Below, one piece after another: positions 9,704 to 47,621 of a stretch of DNA of 64,000 nt (the first letter of the stretch is position 1; each line of letters opens with the position of its first letter). The stretch covers positions 36,866-100,865 of the forward strand of contig NZ_MJGO01000007.1 in assembly GCF_001864895.1 (NCBI RefSeq). Reading direction: 5' to 3'. Source of the stretch: Curtobacterium sp. MCBA15_009. GTDB taxonomy: Bacteria; Actinomycetota; Actinomycetes; Actinomycetales; Microbacteriaceae. The notes under the pieces are model-generated. The model was not told where the DNA came from, did not search any database, and saw only the letters and a list, made by a program, of their open reading frames with translations. The position numbers and the translations under genes were made by a program.

Positions 9704-9713
9704 CCGACAGGGC

Positions 9714-9755
9714 GGACAGGAGGCGCGGTGCCGGCTGGCACCGCGCCTCCCGTCC
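9714..9755. terminator. strong hairpin of the GGAGGCGCGGTGC type
   Basis: The 19-nt arms of a near-perfect inverted repeat (one A-C mismatch) flank a 4-nt loop. The core is GGAGGCGCGGTGCC paired with GGCACCGCGCCTCC. It lies 37 nt after ndh. The same core recurs at 38817-38857. Confidence 0.75.
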
Positions 9756-9838
9756 GTCCGGTGGTCGCGCCGACGCGCCCGGTGCGGCAGACTGACTCCC
9801 TCGGTGCTGCTGCACGGAGGTCCCGGAAGAGGCCACAC

Positions 9839-15063: not shown

Positions 15064-15190
15064 CGGTCGGACGGACGGAAGGCCCGGGACGGCTCCGCCG
15101 CGCGCGTCCCGTCCGGCAGCCGTCCGGCTCCGTCGGTCCTCCGTCCGGCTCCTTCCCGCCGAGTGGCCGCGACGCGCCGCGTGCCGGTCG

Positions 15191-15249
15191 CCGAGGTCGC
15201 GCAAGGTGACGCCCGCCGGCGCCGCACGCGACAGTTCGTGCGACCTCGG
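15191..15249. repeat. 59-bp inverted-repeat core, copy A
   Basis: It begins CCGAGGTCGCGCAA and ends TTCGTGCGACCTCGG, so the termini pair over about 14 bp with one or two mismatches. The GC-rich interior contains GCCGGCGCCG. Confidence 0.75.
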
Positions 15250-15408
15250 CGGTGGCCGGCGCGCGTGGAGGCGGCGTGCACGGAGCCGGTGCGCGCGGAG
15301 CCGGTGCGCGGAGCCGGTGCGCGCCGAGCATCGGGCGGGAGGCCCGTGTCGCCTCCCGTCGGGCGCCTCCCGCCCGCCGAGTGGTCACGACGCGCCGCCT
15401 GCGTACCG

Positions 15409-15813: not shown

Positions 15814-15872
15814 CCGAGGTCGCGCAAGGTGCCGCCCGCCGGCGCCGCGGGCGGCAGTTCGTGCGACCTCGG
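15814..15872. repeat. 59-bp inverted-repeat core, copy D
   Basis: The termini match copy A (CCGAGGTCGCGCAA and TTCGTGCGACCTCGG). It is again 59 bp. Confidence 0.75.
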
Positions 15873-15909: not shown

Positions 15910-15966
15910 TGAGATCGCAATTCGGCCCGGATCGAGCAGCCGGATGGGGGCCGAAGTGCGACCTCA
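15910..15966. repeat. variant inverted-repeat element next to the PAC2 3' end
   Basis: TGAGATCGCAATTCGGCCC pairs with GGGGGCCGAAGTGCGACCTCA (in two parts around one extra G), enclosing about 18 nt. The termini resemble the 59-bp cores but the interior does not. It ends 24 bp from the PAC2 stop and may act as its terminator. Confidence 0.6.
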
Positions 15967-23564: not shown

Positions 23565-26005
23565 CCGCCGCCGAGCTCAGCGCCGCCGAGCGCTTCGCTG
23601 CGGCGAAGGTGCGCAACCGGTCCCGCAACCTCGAACTGTTCCGCTCCGACCTGCGGTTCGACCTCGACCCGTTCCAGTTCGCCGCCTGCGACTCGCTCGA
23701 CCAGGGCCGGAGCGTGCTGGTGGCCGCGCCGACCGGTGCGGGCAAGACCATCGTCGCCGAGTTCGCCATCTGGCTCGCGATGCGGCAGCCGACGGCGAAG
23801 GTGTTCTACACGACGCCGATGAAGGCGCTGAGCAACCAGAAGTACGCCGAGCTCGTCGAGGAGTACGGCGAGACCGAGGTCGGGCTGCTCACCGGTGACA
23901 CGAACGTCAACCCGCGGGCCCGCGTCGTGGTGATGACCACCGAGGTCCTCCGCAACATGATCTACGCGGACTCCGACCTGCTCGACGACCTGGCGTGGGT
24001 GGTCCTCGACGAGGTCCACTACCTGGCCGACCGGTTCCGCGGTGCGGTGTGGGAAGAGGTGATCCTGCACCTCCCGACCGAGGTCCGGCTCGTCTCGCTC
24101 AGCGCGACGGTGTCCAACGCCGAGGAGTTCGGCGACTGGCTGCAGACCGTCCGCGGCGAGACCGACGTGATCGTGTCCGAGGACCGTCCGGTGCCGCTCG
24201 AGCAGCACGTGCTCGTGGGGTCGAAGATGGTCGACCTGTTCGACTCGAGCGGCGCCGCGGCGACGAACCGGGTGAACCCGGAGCTGCTCCGGCTGGTCGG
24301 CGGTGCCTCGCGCAGCGAGCGGCACGGCGGCGGACACCGCGGGGGCCGGGGCCGCGGCGGCTACCACGACCGCCGTGGGCCGCGGACCGAGAAGCTGCAC
24401 CGCGAGCGCATCGCGCACATGCTCGACGAGCGGATGCTGCTGCCCGCGATCTTCTTCGTGTTCAGTCGCGCCGGGTGCGACCAGGGCGTCCGGAACGTCC
24501 TGCGCTCCGGGCTGTCGCTCACCACGCTGCCGGAGCGCAACGAGATCCGCGAGACCGCGGAGTACCACTGCCGCACCCTGCCCGACGAGGACCTCGCCGT
24601 CCTCGGCTACTGGGAGTTCCTCGAGGGGCTCGAGCGCGGGGTCGCCGCGCACCACGCCGGCATGCTCCCGGCGTTCAAGGAGGTCGTCGAGAACCTCTTC
24701 CAGCGCAAGCTGCTCAAGGTCGTCTTCGCGACCGAGACCCTGGCGCTCGGCGTGAACATGCCGGCTCGCACCGTCGTGCTCGAGAAGCTCGAGAAGTTCA
24801 ACGGCGAGGCCCGGGTGCCGATCACGCCGGGGGAGTACACGCAGCTCACCGGTCGCGCCGGCCGCCGCGGCATCGACGTCGAAGGGCACTCGGTCATCCA
24901 GTGGACCGACGGGCTCGACCCGCAGGCCGTCGCCTCGCTCGCCAGCCGGCGGACGTACCCGCTCAACTCGTCGTTCAAGCCGACGTACAACATGGCCGTC
25001 AACCTGATCGACCAGTTCGGACGGCAGCGCACGCGCGAGGTGCTCGAGACCTCGTTCGCGCAGTTCCAGGCCGACCGGTCCGTGGTGGACCTGGCCCGCA
25101 AGGTGCGGTCGCAGCAGGAGTCGCTCGAGGGCTACCGCGAGGCGATGCAGTGCCACCTCGGCGACTTCACCGAGTACGCGGCGCTCCGTCGCGAGCTCTC
25201 CGACCTCGAGCGCTCGAACGTGCCCGGTGGGCGCGAGGCCTCGCACGGTGCGCGCCAGGAGCGGCAGGCCGCGATCACCGAGGTCCGCCGCAAGATGCAG
25301 CGGCACCCCTGCCATGCCTGCCCCGACCGCGAGGCGCACGCCCGGTGGGCCGAGCGCTGGTGGAAGCTCAAGCGCGTCAACGACAAGCTGGTCCAGCAGA
25401 TCCGGTCCCGCACCGGTGCCGTGGCGACCACGTTCGACCGGGTCACCGACGTGCTCCTGCAGCTCGGGTACCTGGTCGACGCCGGCAACGGCGAGGCCAC
25501 GGTCGCCGCGGGCGGCCGTCGTCTGCAGCGCATCTACGGTGACCGCGACCTGCTCGTCGCCGAGTGCCTCGAGGCGGGGGTCTGGAAGGACCTCACGCCG
25601 GCGCAGCTCGCCGCGATGGCCGCCACGATCATCTACCAGCCCCGTCGCGACGACGCCCCCGGTACTGAGCACGCCCTGCCGCGTGGTGCCTTCCGTCCGG
25701 CGCTCGACGAGACCCTGACGATCTGGTCGCGCCTCGACGACATCGAGCGCGACGCCCGCCTGGCGGGCTCGCAGCCGCCCACCCCGGCGATGGCGGTCGG
25801 CATGTTCCGCTGGGCGTCCGGCTCGGCCCTCGACGACGTCCTGCGCACCCTCGACCTGCCCGCCGGTGACTTCGTCCGCTGGTCGAAGCAGGTCATCGAC
25901 CTGCTCGACCAGATCCGGAACGCCGGTGACGACGACCTCGCCCAGACCGCCCGACGTGCGACCGACGCGGTGCGCCGCGGCATCGTCGCCTACGCAGCGG
26001 TCTGA
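23561..26005 (+). CDS. helY: Ski2-like DEAD/DEAH-box RNA helicase HelY
   Basis: Large superfamily 2 helicase of 814 aa. It has motif I VAAPTGAGKTIVAEF, motif II as DEVH (VVLDEVHYLAD), motif III LSATVSN, and in lobe two FATETLALGVNMP and QLTGRAGRRGID. A charged Gly/His/Arg-rich linker sits near residues 250-275. The long C-terminal helical region includes two Cys (HPCHACPDREAH), as in Ski2/Mtr4-like proteins. It probably acts in RNA processing or decay. The order tatC-helY is conserved in actinobacteria. Confidence 0.9.
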   Translation: MTAAELSAAERFAAAKVRNRSRNLELFRSDLRFDLDPFQFAACDSLDQGRSVLVAAPTGAGKTIVAEFAIWLAMRQPTAKVFYTTPMKALSNQKYAELVEEYGETEVGLLTGDTNVNPRARVVVMTTEVLRNMIYADSDLLDDLAWVVLDEVHYLADRFRGAVWEEVILHLPTEVRLVSLSATVSNAEEFGDWLQTVRGETDVIVSEDRPVPLEQHVLVGSKMVDLFDSSGAAATNRVNPELLRLVGGASRSERHGGGHRGGRGRGGYHDRRGPRTEKLHRERIAHMLDERMLLPAIFFVFSRAGCDQGVRNVLRSGLSLTTLPERNEIRETAEYHCRTLPDEDLAVLGYWEFLEGLERGVAAHHAGMLPAFKEVVENLFQRKLLKVVFATETLALGVNMPARTVVLEKLEKFNGEARVPITPGEYTQLTGRAGRRGIDVEGHSVIQWTDGLDPQAVASLASRRTYPLNSSFKPTYNMAVNLIDQFGRQRTREVLETSFAQFQADRSVVDLARKVRSQQESLEGYREAMQCHLGDFTEYAALRRELSDLERSNVPGGREASHGARQERQAAITEVRRKMQRHPCHACPDREAHARWAERWWKLKRVNDKLVQQIRSRTGAVATTFDRVTDVLLQLGYLVDAGNGEATVAAGGRRLQRIYGDRDLLVAECLEAGVWKDLTPAQLAAMAATIIYQPRRDDAPGTEHALPRGAFRPALDETLTIWSRLDDIERDARLAGSQPPTPAMAVGMFRWASGSALDDVLRTLDLPAGDFVRWSKQVIDLLDQIRNAGDDDLAQTARRATDAVRRGIVAYAAV

Positions 26006-38794: not shown

Positions 38795-38816
38795 TCCGCT
38801 GCTGACGTGACCGCCT

Positions 38817-38857
38817 GGAGGCGCGGTGCGGGTCCGACGGACCCGCACCGCGCCTCC
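38817..38857. terminator. 41-bp perfect palindromic terminator after glpK
   Basis: GGAGGCGCGGTGCGGGTCCG and its exact complement flank one base. It serves convergent glpK (+) and trpD (-). It shares its first 13 bases (GGAGGCGCGGTGC) with the hairpin after ndh at 9714-9755. Confidence 0.85.
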
Positions 38858-38930
38858 GGGCCGTTGCGGTGGGCGCGGGGCGCCCGCCCCGACCCACGCT
38901 GCCCCCGGTCCCCGGCTCGCAGGACCCTGC

Positions 38931-44560: not shown

Positions 44561-45520
44561 TTGGACAGCCGGACGGCCGAACACCCCAGGCCGAACCACT
44601 TCCTGCTCCACCTCAGTGACACCCACCTCGTGGCCGGTGACGGCGACCTGTACGGGGACGTCGACTCCGCCGCACGACTCGGCGAGATCATCGCCGACAT
44701 CGAAGCCTCGGGCACCCGGCCGGAAGCGATCGTCGTCACCGGCGACGTGGCCGACAAGGGCGAGCCCGGCGCGTACGCCCGCGTCCGCGAGATCGTCGAA
44801 CCGGCCGCTCGCCGGATCGGTGCCCAGGTCATCTGGGCCATGGGCAACCACGACGAGCGCGGTGCCTTCCGCCAGGAGCTCTTCGGCCTGCAGCCCACCG
44901 ACCGCCCCGTCGACTTCGTCTACGACGTCAACGGACTGCGTGTGATCACCCTCGACACGAGCGTGCCGGGGCACCACCACGGCGAGGTCTCCCCCGAGCA
45001 GCTCGACTGGCTCGCCGAGGTCCTGTCCGAGGCGGCGCCGCACGGCACCATCCTTGCGATGCACCACCCGCCGGTGCCGAGCGTGCAGGACCTGACCGTC
45101 CTCGTCGAGCTCCGCGACCAGCAGGCCCTGGCCGAGGTCGTCGAGGGCAGCGACGTATTGGCGATCATCGCCGGACACCTGCACTACTCGACGAGTGCGG
45201 TCTTCGCCGGCGTCCCGGTGTCTGTCGCGAGTGCCACGTGCTACACGCAGGACCTCACCGAGTACCAGGGCGGCACGCGCGGACGGGACGGTGCCCAGTC
45301 GTTCAACCTCGTCCACGTCTACGGCCGGAACGTCGTGCACTCGGTGGTGCCGATCGGTCACTACTCGACGGTCGGCCAGCCGGTCACCGCAGCCGAGACG
45401 GAAGCACGGCTCGCAGCCGCCGGCGTCCGCATCCCGCCCGCGGTCGAGCCGGCCCCGGTGACGTCGAGCATCCCGGTGTTCACGCTCGACACCGTTCCCG
45501 TCTCCCCCGTGCACCGGTAG
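44561..45520 (+). CDS. metallophosphoesterase, Rv0805-like cyclic nucleotide phosphodiesterase
   Basis: Predicted class III phosphodiesterase with a dimetal centre, 319 aa. All metal motifs are present: [17 protein letters not shown] (D-x-H), [30 protein letters not shown] and GHLHYST. Long stretches match my memory of mycobacterial Rv0805, including [10 protein letters not shown] and [13 protein letters not shown]. Rv0805 hydrolyses cAMP weakly and 2',3'-cyclic nucleotides better. The TTG start at 44561 is the best in-frame codon near the fold, but has only a weak GGAA upstream, so it is uncertain. The gene stands alone, followed by a hairpin array. Confidence 0.88.
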
Positions 45521-45533
45521 GTCGCCACACTTC

Positions 45534-45584
45534 GTGAGCAGCAATGGTCGGGTCCGCGGTGCGGACCCGACCATTCGTGCTCAC
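45534..45584. repeat. long hairpin element 1 (family I)
   Basis: A 51-bp inverted repeat. Outer arms are GTGAGCA/TGCTCAC, the middle is AATG/CATT and the inner stem is GTCGGGTCCGC/GCGGACCCGAC with loop GGT. One 2-nt mismatch bulge. It starts 13 bp after the phosphodiesterase stop. Confidence 0.85.
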
Positions 45585-45647
45585 CATCCGTGGTGGGGGC
45601 ATGTGGACGGGAGGCGCGTGGTGGCTCCCGTCCGTTCGCCGCGCTTC

Positions 45648-45698
45648 GTGAGCAGCAATGGTCGGGTCCGCGGTGCGGACCCGACCATTCGTGCTCAC
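45648..45698. repeat. long hairpin element 2 (family I)
   Basis: Identical to element 1 and 114 bp downstream. The surrounding 100 bp are also nearly identical, so this is a tandem duplication. Each copy is followed by a smaller GGGAGG hairpin (for example 45721-45756). Confidence 0.85.
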
Positions 45699-45836
45699 CA
45701 TCCGTGGTGGAGGCGTGCGGACGGGAGGCGCGTGGCGGGTCCGCCACGGGCCTCCCGGGACGCCGTCATCGCGCAGATCGCGTGCCTGGGCTCAGTCGCC
45801 GGGCTCGCTGTCTCTCCCCCTAGGTCACCCAACTCC

Positions 45837-45890
45837 ACTGAGCAGAAGACGTCGGGTCCGACATGGCGACTCGACATCTTCTGCTCACTC
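45837..45890. repeat. long hairpin element 3 (family II)
   Basis: Outer arms TGAGCAG/CTGCTCA, middle AAGAC/ATCTT (one mismatch), inner GTCGGGTC/GACTCGAC with a G-T wobble. Same architecture as family I with a different middle segment. Confidence 0.8.
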
Positions 45891-45928
45891 GGCGATGCGC
45901 GGTCGGCGGGCGACACTCGGACCCACCT

Positions 45929-45985
45929 CGAGTGAGCAGAAGACGTCGGGTCCGAGGTACGGACTCGACGTCTTCTGCTCACTCG
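45929..45985. repeat. long hairpin element 4 (family II)
   Basis: A 57-bp element with 26-bp arms, broken only by one G-T wobble, and loop AGGTA. It begins CGAGTGAGCAGAAGAC and ends with the complement. It is the most perfect of the four. About 80 bp separate it from the 3' end of the Stealth gene. Confidence 0.85.
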
Positions 45986-46067
45986 ACGGCCGCGCACCCT
46001 GCGGCAGGTCGGATGGGAGGCTCGAGGGGACGCTGCCACGGGCCCTCCAGCAGGACGCTGGCGCGTC

Positions 46068-47621
46068 CTATGCGCTGTCGCGCTCCCACGGCGCCGGGAA
46101 GGGGAAGTACCGCTCCAGGAAGTCCGTGACGCGCTGCGTCCGCTCCTCGTCGCTGACCTCGGGGAAGCTGCCGTCGTTCAGGCAGAAGAAGTCGACGTTC
46201 CGCTTCTTGAGCAGCTCGTCCAGGGTGCGGAGGCCGGACTGCATCGTCGTGTCGATGTACTTGACCGGCGCGTTCTCCTGCACGATCGCCCGACCGGTGA
46301 GCAGGGCGTAGTAGTGGTACAGCGAGTTCGTCACCGAGATGTTGTCCGCTGCGCGGAACCGCGAGGCGGCCGTCGCGCGGAATTCGTCGGCGAACTCGTG
46401 CTCCATCTCGGTCATGATCGAGGAGCGCAGGGGCGTCGGCGCGTGCTCGAGGTGCCGCGTCGTCACCGCACCGAAGCGCTGCTGCAGGAGTCGTCGGTTC
46501 ACCCGGGCCGAGTTCTCGAAGCCGCTCCGTGCCGGGTGGTTCGACCCGAGCCCGATGCGAGTGTCGGCGAGGATGAACTTCGTCACGGAGCCCGGGCTGA
46601 AGAACACCGACGGGTCGACGAGCCGCCCGAAGAACATGTCGTCGTTCGAGTAGATGAAGTGCTCGCTGATGCCCGGGATGTGGTGCAGCTGCGACTCGAC
46701 GGCCTGCGAGTTGTGCGTCGGCAGGACCGAGGGGTCGGCGAAGAACTCCTCGCTCCGGACGATGCGCACCTTCGGGTGGTCGGCCAGCCAGTGCGGCGCC
46801 GGCGAGTCCGTGGCGATGTAGATCTGGCGGATCCACGGCGCGAACGTGTGCACCGAGCGGAGCGCGTACTTCAGCTCGTCGATCTGCCGGAACCGGGCGG
46901 GGGCGTCGTCGCCCTCACCGAGCACCGCGGTCGACTGGGCGGCCTGCCGGGCGCGCTGGTACTCGATGGCGTTGCCGTCCACCCACGAGAAGACGATGTC
47001 GATCGGGAACCGGATGTCCGACACGTGGTCGTCGAACATGTGCTCGACGGTGCGCCAGGTGCGGCCGTAGCGCTCGATGTCGACGAGCACGAACTCGTCG
47101 ATCGGCAGGCTGCGACGCATGAGGGCGTTCTCGACGGGCGCCAGGACCTCGGTGTCGGTGACGCGCCAGAACTCGAGCTGGACGCTGGTCTCCGCGCCGT
47201 AGCGCAGGCGGCCGAGCGGCTCGAGGCGGGGCCGGAAGACCCGCAGGACGGGTTCGTCGACGTGGCCGAGGCCGTCGTCGGTCACGAGCACGGCGGGCTC
47301 GCCCGGGGGCTTCGCGTAGAACGGTTCGTTGACGGCCGCGGCCATCACGGCGCTCTCGGCTCGCTGGCGGTCGCGTTCGTCGATCGCGATGACGGGCCGC
47401 TGGTCGTTGCCGCGGATGAGCAGGTGGTCGACGTCACCGGCGGTGAGTGCGTCATCGAGGAACAGCAGGTCCTCGATCATCGACTGCTGCGGCGTCAGGT
47501 GGCCGTTGAGCAACGTCAGGCGGCCCTTGCGGACCACGACGTCGGATCGGTCGAGACCGCCGGAGGACGGTCGAGGGGTCAGCAGAGGACTCTCGGTCAC
47601 CGGCTCGGTCTCGTCGTTCAT
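46068..47621 (-). CDS. Stealth-family sugar phosphotransferase (capsular polysaccharide phosphotransferase)
   Basis: Predicted to transfer a hexose 1-phosphate group during surface polysaccharide synthesis. The 517-aa protein holds the four Stealth regions: CR1 IDIVFSWVDGNAIEYQ, CR2 RFRQIDELKYALRSVHTFAPW then IYIATD (in parts), CR3 THNSQAVESQLHHIPGISEHFIYSNDDMFFG (in parts) and CR4 VKYIDT. There is no membrane helix. It stands without other capsule genes, so the polymer it serves is unknown. The start is ATG at 47621; the N-terminal 40 residues look less conserved and the true start could be slightly later. Confidence 0.9.
   Translation of the reverse strand: MNDETEPVTESPLLTPRPSSGGLDRSDVVVRKGRLTLLNGHLTPQQSMIEDLLFLDDALTAGDVDHLLIRGNDQRPVIAIDERDRQRAESAVMAAAVNEPFYAKPPGEPAVLVTDDGLGHVDEPVLRVFRPRLEPLGRLRYGAETSVQLEFWRVTDTEVLAPVENALMRRSLPIDEFVLVDIERYGRTWRTVEHMFDDHVSDIRFPIDIVFSWVDGNAIEYQRARQAAQSTAVLGEGDDAPARFRQIDELKYALRSVHTFAPWIRQIYIATDSPAPHWLADHPKVRIVRSEEFFADPSVLPTHNSQAVESQLHHIPGISEHFIYSNDDMFFGRLVDPSVFFSPGSVTKFILADTRIGLGSNHPARSGFENSARVNRRLLQQRFGAVTTRHLEHAPTPLRSSIMTEMEHEFADEFRATAASRFRAADNISVTNSLYHYYALLTGRAIVQENAPVKYIDTTMQSGLRTLDELLKKRNVDFFCLNDGSFPEVSDEERTQRVTDFLERYFPFPAPWERDSA

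Follow-up and report, generated by a model that had tools for sequence, protein, structure and literature searches.

Candidate duplex-DNA sites at gene ends in Curtobacterium: 49-bp palindromes whose paired changes fall mostly in their fastest-evolving part

What produces matched base changes on the two arms of long palindromes that follow one another between two genes? This question is raised by an array at positions 45534-45986 of the window (the whole stretch of 64,000 nucleotides of Curtobacterium sp. MCBA15_009 DNA that was analyzed), in which four 49-bp palindromes are flanked by the 3' ends of two convergent genes, a calcineurin-like phosphoesterase gene (44561-45520, + strand, PF00149) and a Stealth-family gene (46068-47621, - strand, PF11380, PF17102, and PF17103). 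A reading made from the letters only (hereafter, the sequence-only reading) had described this arrangement as four inverted repeats of 49 to 57 bp between convergent genes, and both the repeats, with 49-bp cores that reach 49 to 59 bp when paired extensions are included, and the arms common to all four were found again on re-examination. The palindromes themselves have no strand. Element 1 (45535-45583) starts 14 bp past the end of the + strand gene and has CAATG as its left block; element 2 (45649-45697) is its tandem duplicate; element 3 (45839-45887) carries the block AAGAC on the left and AAGAT on the right; and element 4 (45933-45981) carries the block AAGAC, with pairing that reaches 45928-45986. 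The tandem duplication of 114 bp that had been reported for elements 1 and 2 (45522-45742, no strand) consists of copies at 45522-45628 and 45636-45742, which share 107 nucleotides at 93% identity with a spacing of 114. The 3 paired changes noted previously are exact when elements 1 and 4 are compared (position 10, A-T to G-C; position 11, T-A to A-T; position 12, G-C to C-G); position 8 also differs on both arms between these elements, but elements 1 and 2 have a C/C mismatch there. The window has 5 matches to the pattern TGAGCA-N30..58-TGCTCA, where shuffled sequence predicts 0.02; the match at 23829, outside the array, is without the inner arms. The RNA folding z-scores of the four palindromes on the + strand range from -5.9 to -10.7. 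The same array also holds a palindrome (45722-45757, no strand) that is similar to another family found across the genus, family B (GGGAGGC...GCCTCCC).

Absence of further copies had been named as the outcome that would speak against a repeat family, and this was not what we found: the host genome contains 93 copies at 3 mismatches or fewer (backwards control, 0), which form a genome-wide palindromic repeat family. A variable-length pattern search of the host genome that allowed 42 to 70 bp gave 92 matches (backwards control, 14); among the 50 matches listed, 47 have a length of exactly 49 bp and the other 3 (53, 59, and 63 bp) all lack the inner arms. The detailed host set consists of 84 elements in 488 kb including the window, from regions chosen around elements. 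Their numbers of mismatches (0, 1, 2, and 3 in 59, 22, 1, and 2 elements, and 4 in none) do not form a decay continuum, and for 141 of the 143 exact single arms in the 488 kb of host DNA the mate is present at the fixed position. Almost no variation is present in columns 1-7, 9, 13-16, 18, and 19 (the common letter is kept in 78 to 84 of the 84 elements; TGAGCAG.A...GTCG.GT); columns 8, 10-12, and 17 are variable, and columns 20-30 are mixed. Part of this invariance is ascertainment because the searches used conserved letters, with columns 9, 18, and 19 left free in the host search pattern. A weaker extension lies outside the 49 bp (G at -1 in 81/84 and C at -7 in 74/84). The conserved features are the arm motif KGAGCAG-N5-GTCGGGT and the 49-bp length. 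The two discrete hairpin families proposed by the sequence-only reading are ruled out, because the 168 arms of the 84 host elements contain 31 block types and most elements carry two differing blocks. Named database matches to one exact form (9 stretches) are all from Curtobacterium (two strains of flaccumfaciens, aurantiacum, oceanosedimentum, pusillum, and sp. VKM Ac-1393). In the accessible part of the open literature on Curtobacterium palindromic or intergenic repeats we found nothing on these elements, and the open literature gave no match on Microbacteriaceae inverted-repeat terminator hairpins or on actinobacterial REP/RAYT palindromes.

Two side observations concern individual copies and their arrangement. 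The spacings of host arrays (94 to 190 bp) cluster near 94, 104, 114, 126, 147, and 168 bp, which suggests a helical repeat of approximately 10.5 bp (p = 0.003, and 0.049 on unique spacings), a post hoc and weak signal. A 19-kb IMG/VR contig (L230) is the sole contig of the viral collection with an exact TGA element, and could be the host flank of a prophage; a phage origin was considered on this match and set aside.

The family extends beyond the host. A first search with the TGA letters scored it as present in 21 of 60 genus genomes, whereas a relaxed core at 1 mismatch or fewer gave at least 9 matches on both strands in 26 of the 60 (controls, at most 5 per strand). Since the first search was tied to the TGA letters, the absence that it had suggested was withdrawn for several genomes and a patchy presence is no longer proposed. 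Among genomes that had initially been credited with no more than 2 copies, G043, G027, and G040 have 35, 30, and 22 matches to GGAGCAG...CTGCTCC at 3 mismatches or fewer; 5 of the 12 genomes that were re-searched with this GGA form still gave zero. Pair 1 is G-C instead of T-A in nearly all copies examined from GGA-type genomes: in the fetched stretches, GGA is on both arms in 20/20 G040 and 22/26 G043 elements, and TGA is at pair 1 in 76/82 host elements. At six orthologous slots a GGA-type copy stands opposite a TGA-type copy. This pair-1 dialect is upheld, but a genome-wide dialect of the block was dropped, the difference in block identity within and between genomes being small (mean 0.654 versus 0.592; left-arm difference 0.025, with a permutation maximum of 0.042). 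As a separate observation, the GGA-type genome G043 contains two pure TGA-type elements in tandem (G043:C47:32363-32607, L191), with two TGA/GGA hybrids elsewhere in this genome; horizontal transfer or a remnant of the older dialect is possible.

The TGA form was found in 3 of 299 genomes of the family, which we take to be Microbacteriaceae from taxonomy and the Curtobacterium matches, and all 3 are Curtobacterium. Restriction to this genus is true for the TGA form only, as the core recurs in other genera. Among 120 family genomes, 117 of them from outside the genus, the exact core GCAG-N5-GTCG-N17-CGAC-N5-CTGC was matched 16 times, in 7 genomes that represent 6 other genera (control, 4 matches in those 117). 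The geometry of the element, in a core of 43 bp, recurs in other genera of the family, with the outer arms being genus-specific; G110 has its own outer arm in 6/6 copies. In 340 kb from five such genomes there are 21 copies at 2 mismatches or fewer, 16 of which are called convergent with gene calls that are rough because they come from a Curtobacterium model. As these copies were ascertained by the core, independent support comes only from the outer arms, the extra nearby copies, and the placement.

The elements are mostly found shortly after stop codons, and above all where genes converge. The 84 host elements comprise 53 between convergent genes, 27 between codirectional genes, 2 between divergent genes, 1 within a gene, and 1 at a contig edge; in terms of slots, for which intergenic intervals of 60 bp or more in the regions chosen around elements were counted, 32/58 convergent, 21/117 codirectional, and 2/69 divergent host slots are filled (convergent versus divergent, Fisher p = 6e-12). 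The 63 elements from other genomes divide into 36 convergent, 16 codirectional, 7 divergent, 3 at an edge, and 1 intragenic. Some of these 7 divergent elements represent one orthologous slot, and some divergent placements are kept between species, which is a point against a pure terminator. The nearest stop codon is a median of 56 nt away for host elements and 21 nt for those of other genomes. Long palindromes of any family fill 36/51 convergent, 28/105 codirectional, and 4/62 divergent slots in the window together with 160 kb of G001 and 155 kb of G005, the latter two being orthologous stretches picked because both hold elements.

This position past stop codons and the any-family bias towards convergent slots are what would be expected of RNA hairpins that work from either convergent gene as two-way terminators or mRNA 3'-end stabilisers. 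The strong predicted RNA folds (mean energies of -31 to -39 kcal/mol in four genomes) agree with this, and where G005 has a non-shared element at 203996, the G001 sequence is another one that looks hairpin-like by eye. However, a U-tract (4 T in 6) was found in 0 of 133 downstream 12-mers and terminator-like sites in the array numbered 0, the few conserved divergent placements do not suit a terminator, and a terminator needs neither a fixed length of 49 bp nor sequence-specific arms. Rfam 15 at gathering score detected nothing but a tRNA in the window; in the array there were 10 sub-threshold matches, 8 of them to microRNA models. Separate short hairpins that look by eye like canonical terminators are also present in the host genome.

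Other palindromes were seen alongside the 49-bp family. Family B (CGGACGGGAGGC...GCCTCCCGTCCG) is 44 bp long in 20 of 23 host copies examined and was detected in 59/60 genus genomes with up to 130 matches per strand; among the matches listed for some genomes, one identical core is present at many dispersed places. Variants of this family lie in the window at 9707-9762, 38810-38864, and in the array described above, with copies also at L117, L097, and others. A third family (GAGATCGCANTTCGG...CCGAANTGCGATCTC), 55 bp long in all matches listed, is present in 4/60 genus genomes (G034, G018, G053, and G057), and a diverged copy of it lies in the window (15910-15966). A further palindrome (CCGAGGTCGCGCAAGGTG...CAGTTCGTGCGACCTCGG) has two window copies approximately 600 bp apart (15189-15251 and 15814-15872). 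Finally, three 62-bp palindromes of the host genome with the ends CGCAC...GTGCG (L104:8113, L116:8027, and L095:13286) are perhaps another fixed-length family.

We then turn to orthologous copies and the origin of the paired changes. At the phosphoesterase locus, 11 of 29 other genus genomes have a hairpin of this 49-bp family at the same place, with an exact TGAGCAG arm on both sides in five and variant outer letters in the rest, and several of the 11 carry a different block on both arms; the remaining genomes have other hairpins or none. In the G001 stretch 8/8 elements have a counterpart in G005, which has 2 extra elements. Orthologous copies whose loops match show paired changes across species (e.g., AAATG/CATTT to AAGAG/CTCTT), and the covariation among homologous loci of relatives on which the sequence-only reading depended is hence present. 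Divergence of the parts of the element was measured in 7 G001-G005 pairs and in 18 other pairs. The conserved arms differ at 3/196 (1.5%) and 8/504 (1.6%) positions, respectively, the flanks at 103/1018 (10%) and 507/2508 (20%), the loops at 6/77 (8%) and 47/198 (24%), and the block at 12/56 (21%) and 53/144 (37%); block and flank divergence differ with p = 0.013 and 8e-6, values that are rough because pairs and genomes are related. A third set of 58 pairs from the phosphoesterase locus gave 6.8% for arms, 19% for flanks, 27% for loops, and 44% for the block. These rates use 83 of 197 flank-based comparisons, leaving out the window's duplicate locus, further array members, and pairs with more than 5/11 loop differences, which lowers the loop rate; flank rates omit gap columns and include some coding DNA. 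The paired changes are mostly in the 5-bp block (positions 8-12), which evolves approximately twice as fast as the flanking DNA. Altogether, the divergence rates indicate that the paired block is the fastest part of the element.

How the block changes is illustrated by the copies 582008 and 248809, in which the block of one arm differs at 5/5 positions and the remainder of the element is identical: scattered point mutations do not account for this, which is either a copied-in block or a pair of compensating indels. To this we add the sense-strand mismatches of 43 codirectional elements, 13 G.T and 19 A.C (host, 9 and 11), which depart from a 3:1 excess of G.T (p = 4e-5) and are thus without G-U preference. 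The lack of a G.T excess argues that block pairing is not maintained by pairing in RNA. It bears mainly on the block and is compatible with an RNA role for the invariant stems, which offer no test of G-U preference, and with the points on placement and terminators given above it leaves RNA hairpins as a somewhat unlikely account of the elements. Template switching is described in other organisms as homogenising the arms of inverted repeats (PMC8794818 and PMC8604942). The paired changes of the block are most simply accounted for by template switching between arms. Inversion of the loop was set aside as a mark of template switching, because inverting the loop brings it closer to its orthologue by more than 2 in only 12/197 flank-based comparisons, many of which repeat one locus, and independent loci are too few. 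Among single loci, the loops of L040 (G011) and L150 (G003) resemble their orthologues more closely in inverted form, an outcome that template switching could produce.

In a further account, which follows the sequence-only reading, the folded DNA itself (cruciform or hairpin) is under selection. In its favor, covariation at positions 8 and 10-12 is present in seven of seven TGA-type genomes, with the exception of position 12 in G031 (p = 0.21), and at position 11 of the TGA type 218 copies are paired versus 115.5 after shuffling; per position, covariation is strong in the host. In some TGA-type genomes pairing reaches past the block (positions 17 and 22 in G001). The host showed no covariation at positions 17, 18, and 20-24, and G003 likewise none at 17. 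In the three GGA-type genomes (G040, G043, and G027), covariation is much weaker with the arms intact. Pooled, it amounts to 46 paired versus 36.2 shuffled at position 11 (p = 0.001) and 54 versus 51.0 at position 12 (p = 0.14), with p = 0.02 at position 9 and 0.04 at position 8, which is weak but above zero. The block is fully paired in 21/74 GGA-type elements versus 150/288 in the seven TGA-type genomes (p = 3e-4); for the host alone (32/79) the difference from the GGA group is not significant (p = 0.13). Positions 13-16 are fully matched in the G040 and G043 copies, although the search required them with one mismatch allowed. Weak block pairing with invariant arms indicates that tight folding of the block is no constant requirement and that sequence and spacing are. 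We consider a selected DNA fold very unlikely. The previous conclusion that covariation means a fold that is "selected or copied" divides accordingly: selection fares poorly in view of the fastest-evolving block, the missing G-U preference, and the weak GGA pairing, and copying fits better, in the form of copying from arm to arm.

Could the elements instead be REP-like repeats, non-autonomous or domesticated, that were spread as folded single-stranded DNA by a non-RAYT enzyme and are tolerated at gene ends? REPs lie mostly between codirectional or convergent genes and their GT pairing supports transcription, according to PMC3733652 (PMC8266576 is another REP paper). The 49-bp elements have the same placement, with many extragenic copies that are mostly convergent or codirectional, and a GT pairing signal was not seen; their dispersion, tandem arrays, and lineage variants also resemble REPs, and presence of the TGA form is clustered on a one-gene tree of 30 genomes (4 changes; shuffled mean, 10.2). 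Against such an origin, the Y1-type tyrosine transposase domain PF01797 was detected in 0/60 genus genomes at E <= 0.001 in a search that was positive in 5/14 controls, so that the earlier remark that no RAYT gene is seen nearby extends to the whole genus sample, host included, and that on transposases agrees with 0 of 6 neighboring proteins scanned. A GTAG tag was found within 10 nt on either side of 0/84 host elements (CGTC is on the left in 11/84 and its complement on the right in 12/84), and direct repeats of 3 to 6 nt at offsets 0 to 9, as a target-site duplication would leave, never exceeded the highest of 300 shuffles. At the two G005-only elements, G001 has no clean empty site in the compared stretch, and at single orthologous loci the arms are far more conserved than the flanks, unlike dead copies. 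We consider this origin unlikely but, like RNA hairpins, a serious alternative. An integron attC-like site, to which the bipartite arm layout had pointed, was rejected on anatomy alone, no cassette pattern being seen.

The reading that we favor, tentatively and with less than even confidence, is that the elements are duplex-DNA sites for a putative sequence-specific factor at gene ends, and that their paired changes arise by template-switch homogenisation. The conserved motif with fixed spacing is what a protein site would show, and the fixed length over a free center, the sequence-specific arms, and the coordinated difference at pair 1 suit a protein site better than an RNA hairpin. Each element would be a rigid palindromic duplex site of 49 bp, made of two inverted copies of K-GAGCAG/5 bp/GTCGGGT at fixed spacing, to which the putative protein would bind, probably at both half-sites. 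The bound site could then be a barrier in both directions, at which converging transcription is stopped or insulated. The palindrome may at the same time make the locus prone to template switching during replication, which would copy one arm onto the other and yield paired, seemingly compensatory changes in the uncontacted block; such changes would need no selection on folding. Several observations stand against a protein site: the pairing beyond the block in G001, as folding selection would give; the covariation that the GGA group retains (pooled p = 0.001 for position 11); the palindromes of other sequence that fill the same type of slot, which suits a hairpin as such; the predicted RNA folding of the elements, which is still good; the weakness of the array phasing; the share of ascertainment in the arm invariance; and the 7/63 divergent calls outside the host. 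On a larger scale, there could be a Microbacteriaceae-wide, protein-dependent boundary system, in which a putative dedicated protein on core sites at gene 3' ends would form a two-way roadblock and protein and site would co-evolve into dialects (e.g., pair 1 in GGA-type genomes), although we regard this as unlikely.

Textbook covariation alone is no proof of a selected fold, as the paired positions here are those that change fastest, and in related genomes pairing of the block loosens while the arms stay fixed. The elements constitute a large class of fixed-length gene-end sites in a genus common on plants and in soil; related sites exist in further genera, and RAYT, the enzyme that accounts for REPs, is missing. 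Two questions become testable, namely what the mark at these gene ends is and how approximately 90 dispersed sites have come to carry one and the same base-pair difference between lineages.

Compared with known systems, the elements share with REP/REPIN sequences and their RAYT (TnpA-REP) that they are short, high-copy, extragenic palindromes with convergent or codirectional placement, arrays, and lineage-specific types, but they differ in having neither a RAYT in the genus nor a GTAG tag, and in being symmetric, exactly 49 bp long, and conserved in their arms at orthologous loci. Like intrinsic (Rho-independent) bidirectional terminators, they place a hairpin past the stop codons of convergent genes, but without a U-tract and with a fixed length and a conserved stem sequence. 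The multi-base paired changes in the arms of an inverted repeat are those of quasipalindromes corrected by template switching, here atop a genome-wide, sequence-constrained family. Finally, although their approximately 90 copies lie at gene 3' ends and not at promoters, they have in common with operator or architectural sites of DNA-binding proteins a palindromic bipartite motif, a fixed spacing, and lineage-specific letters.
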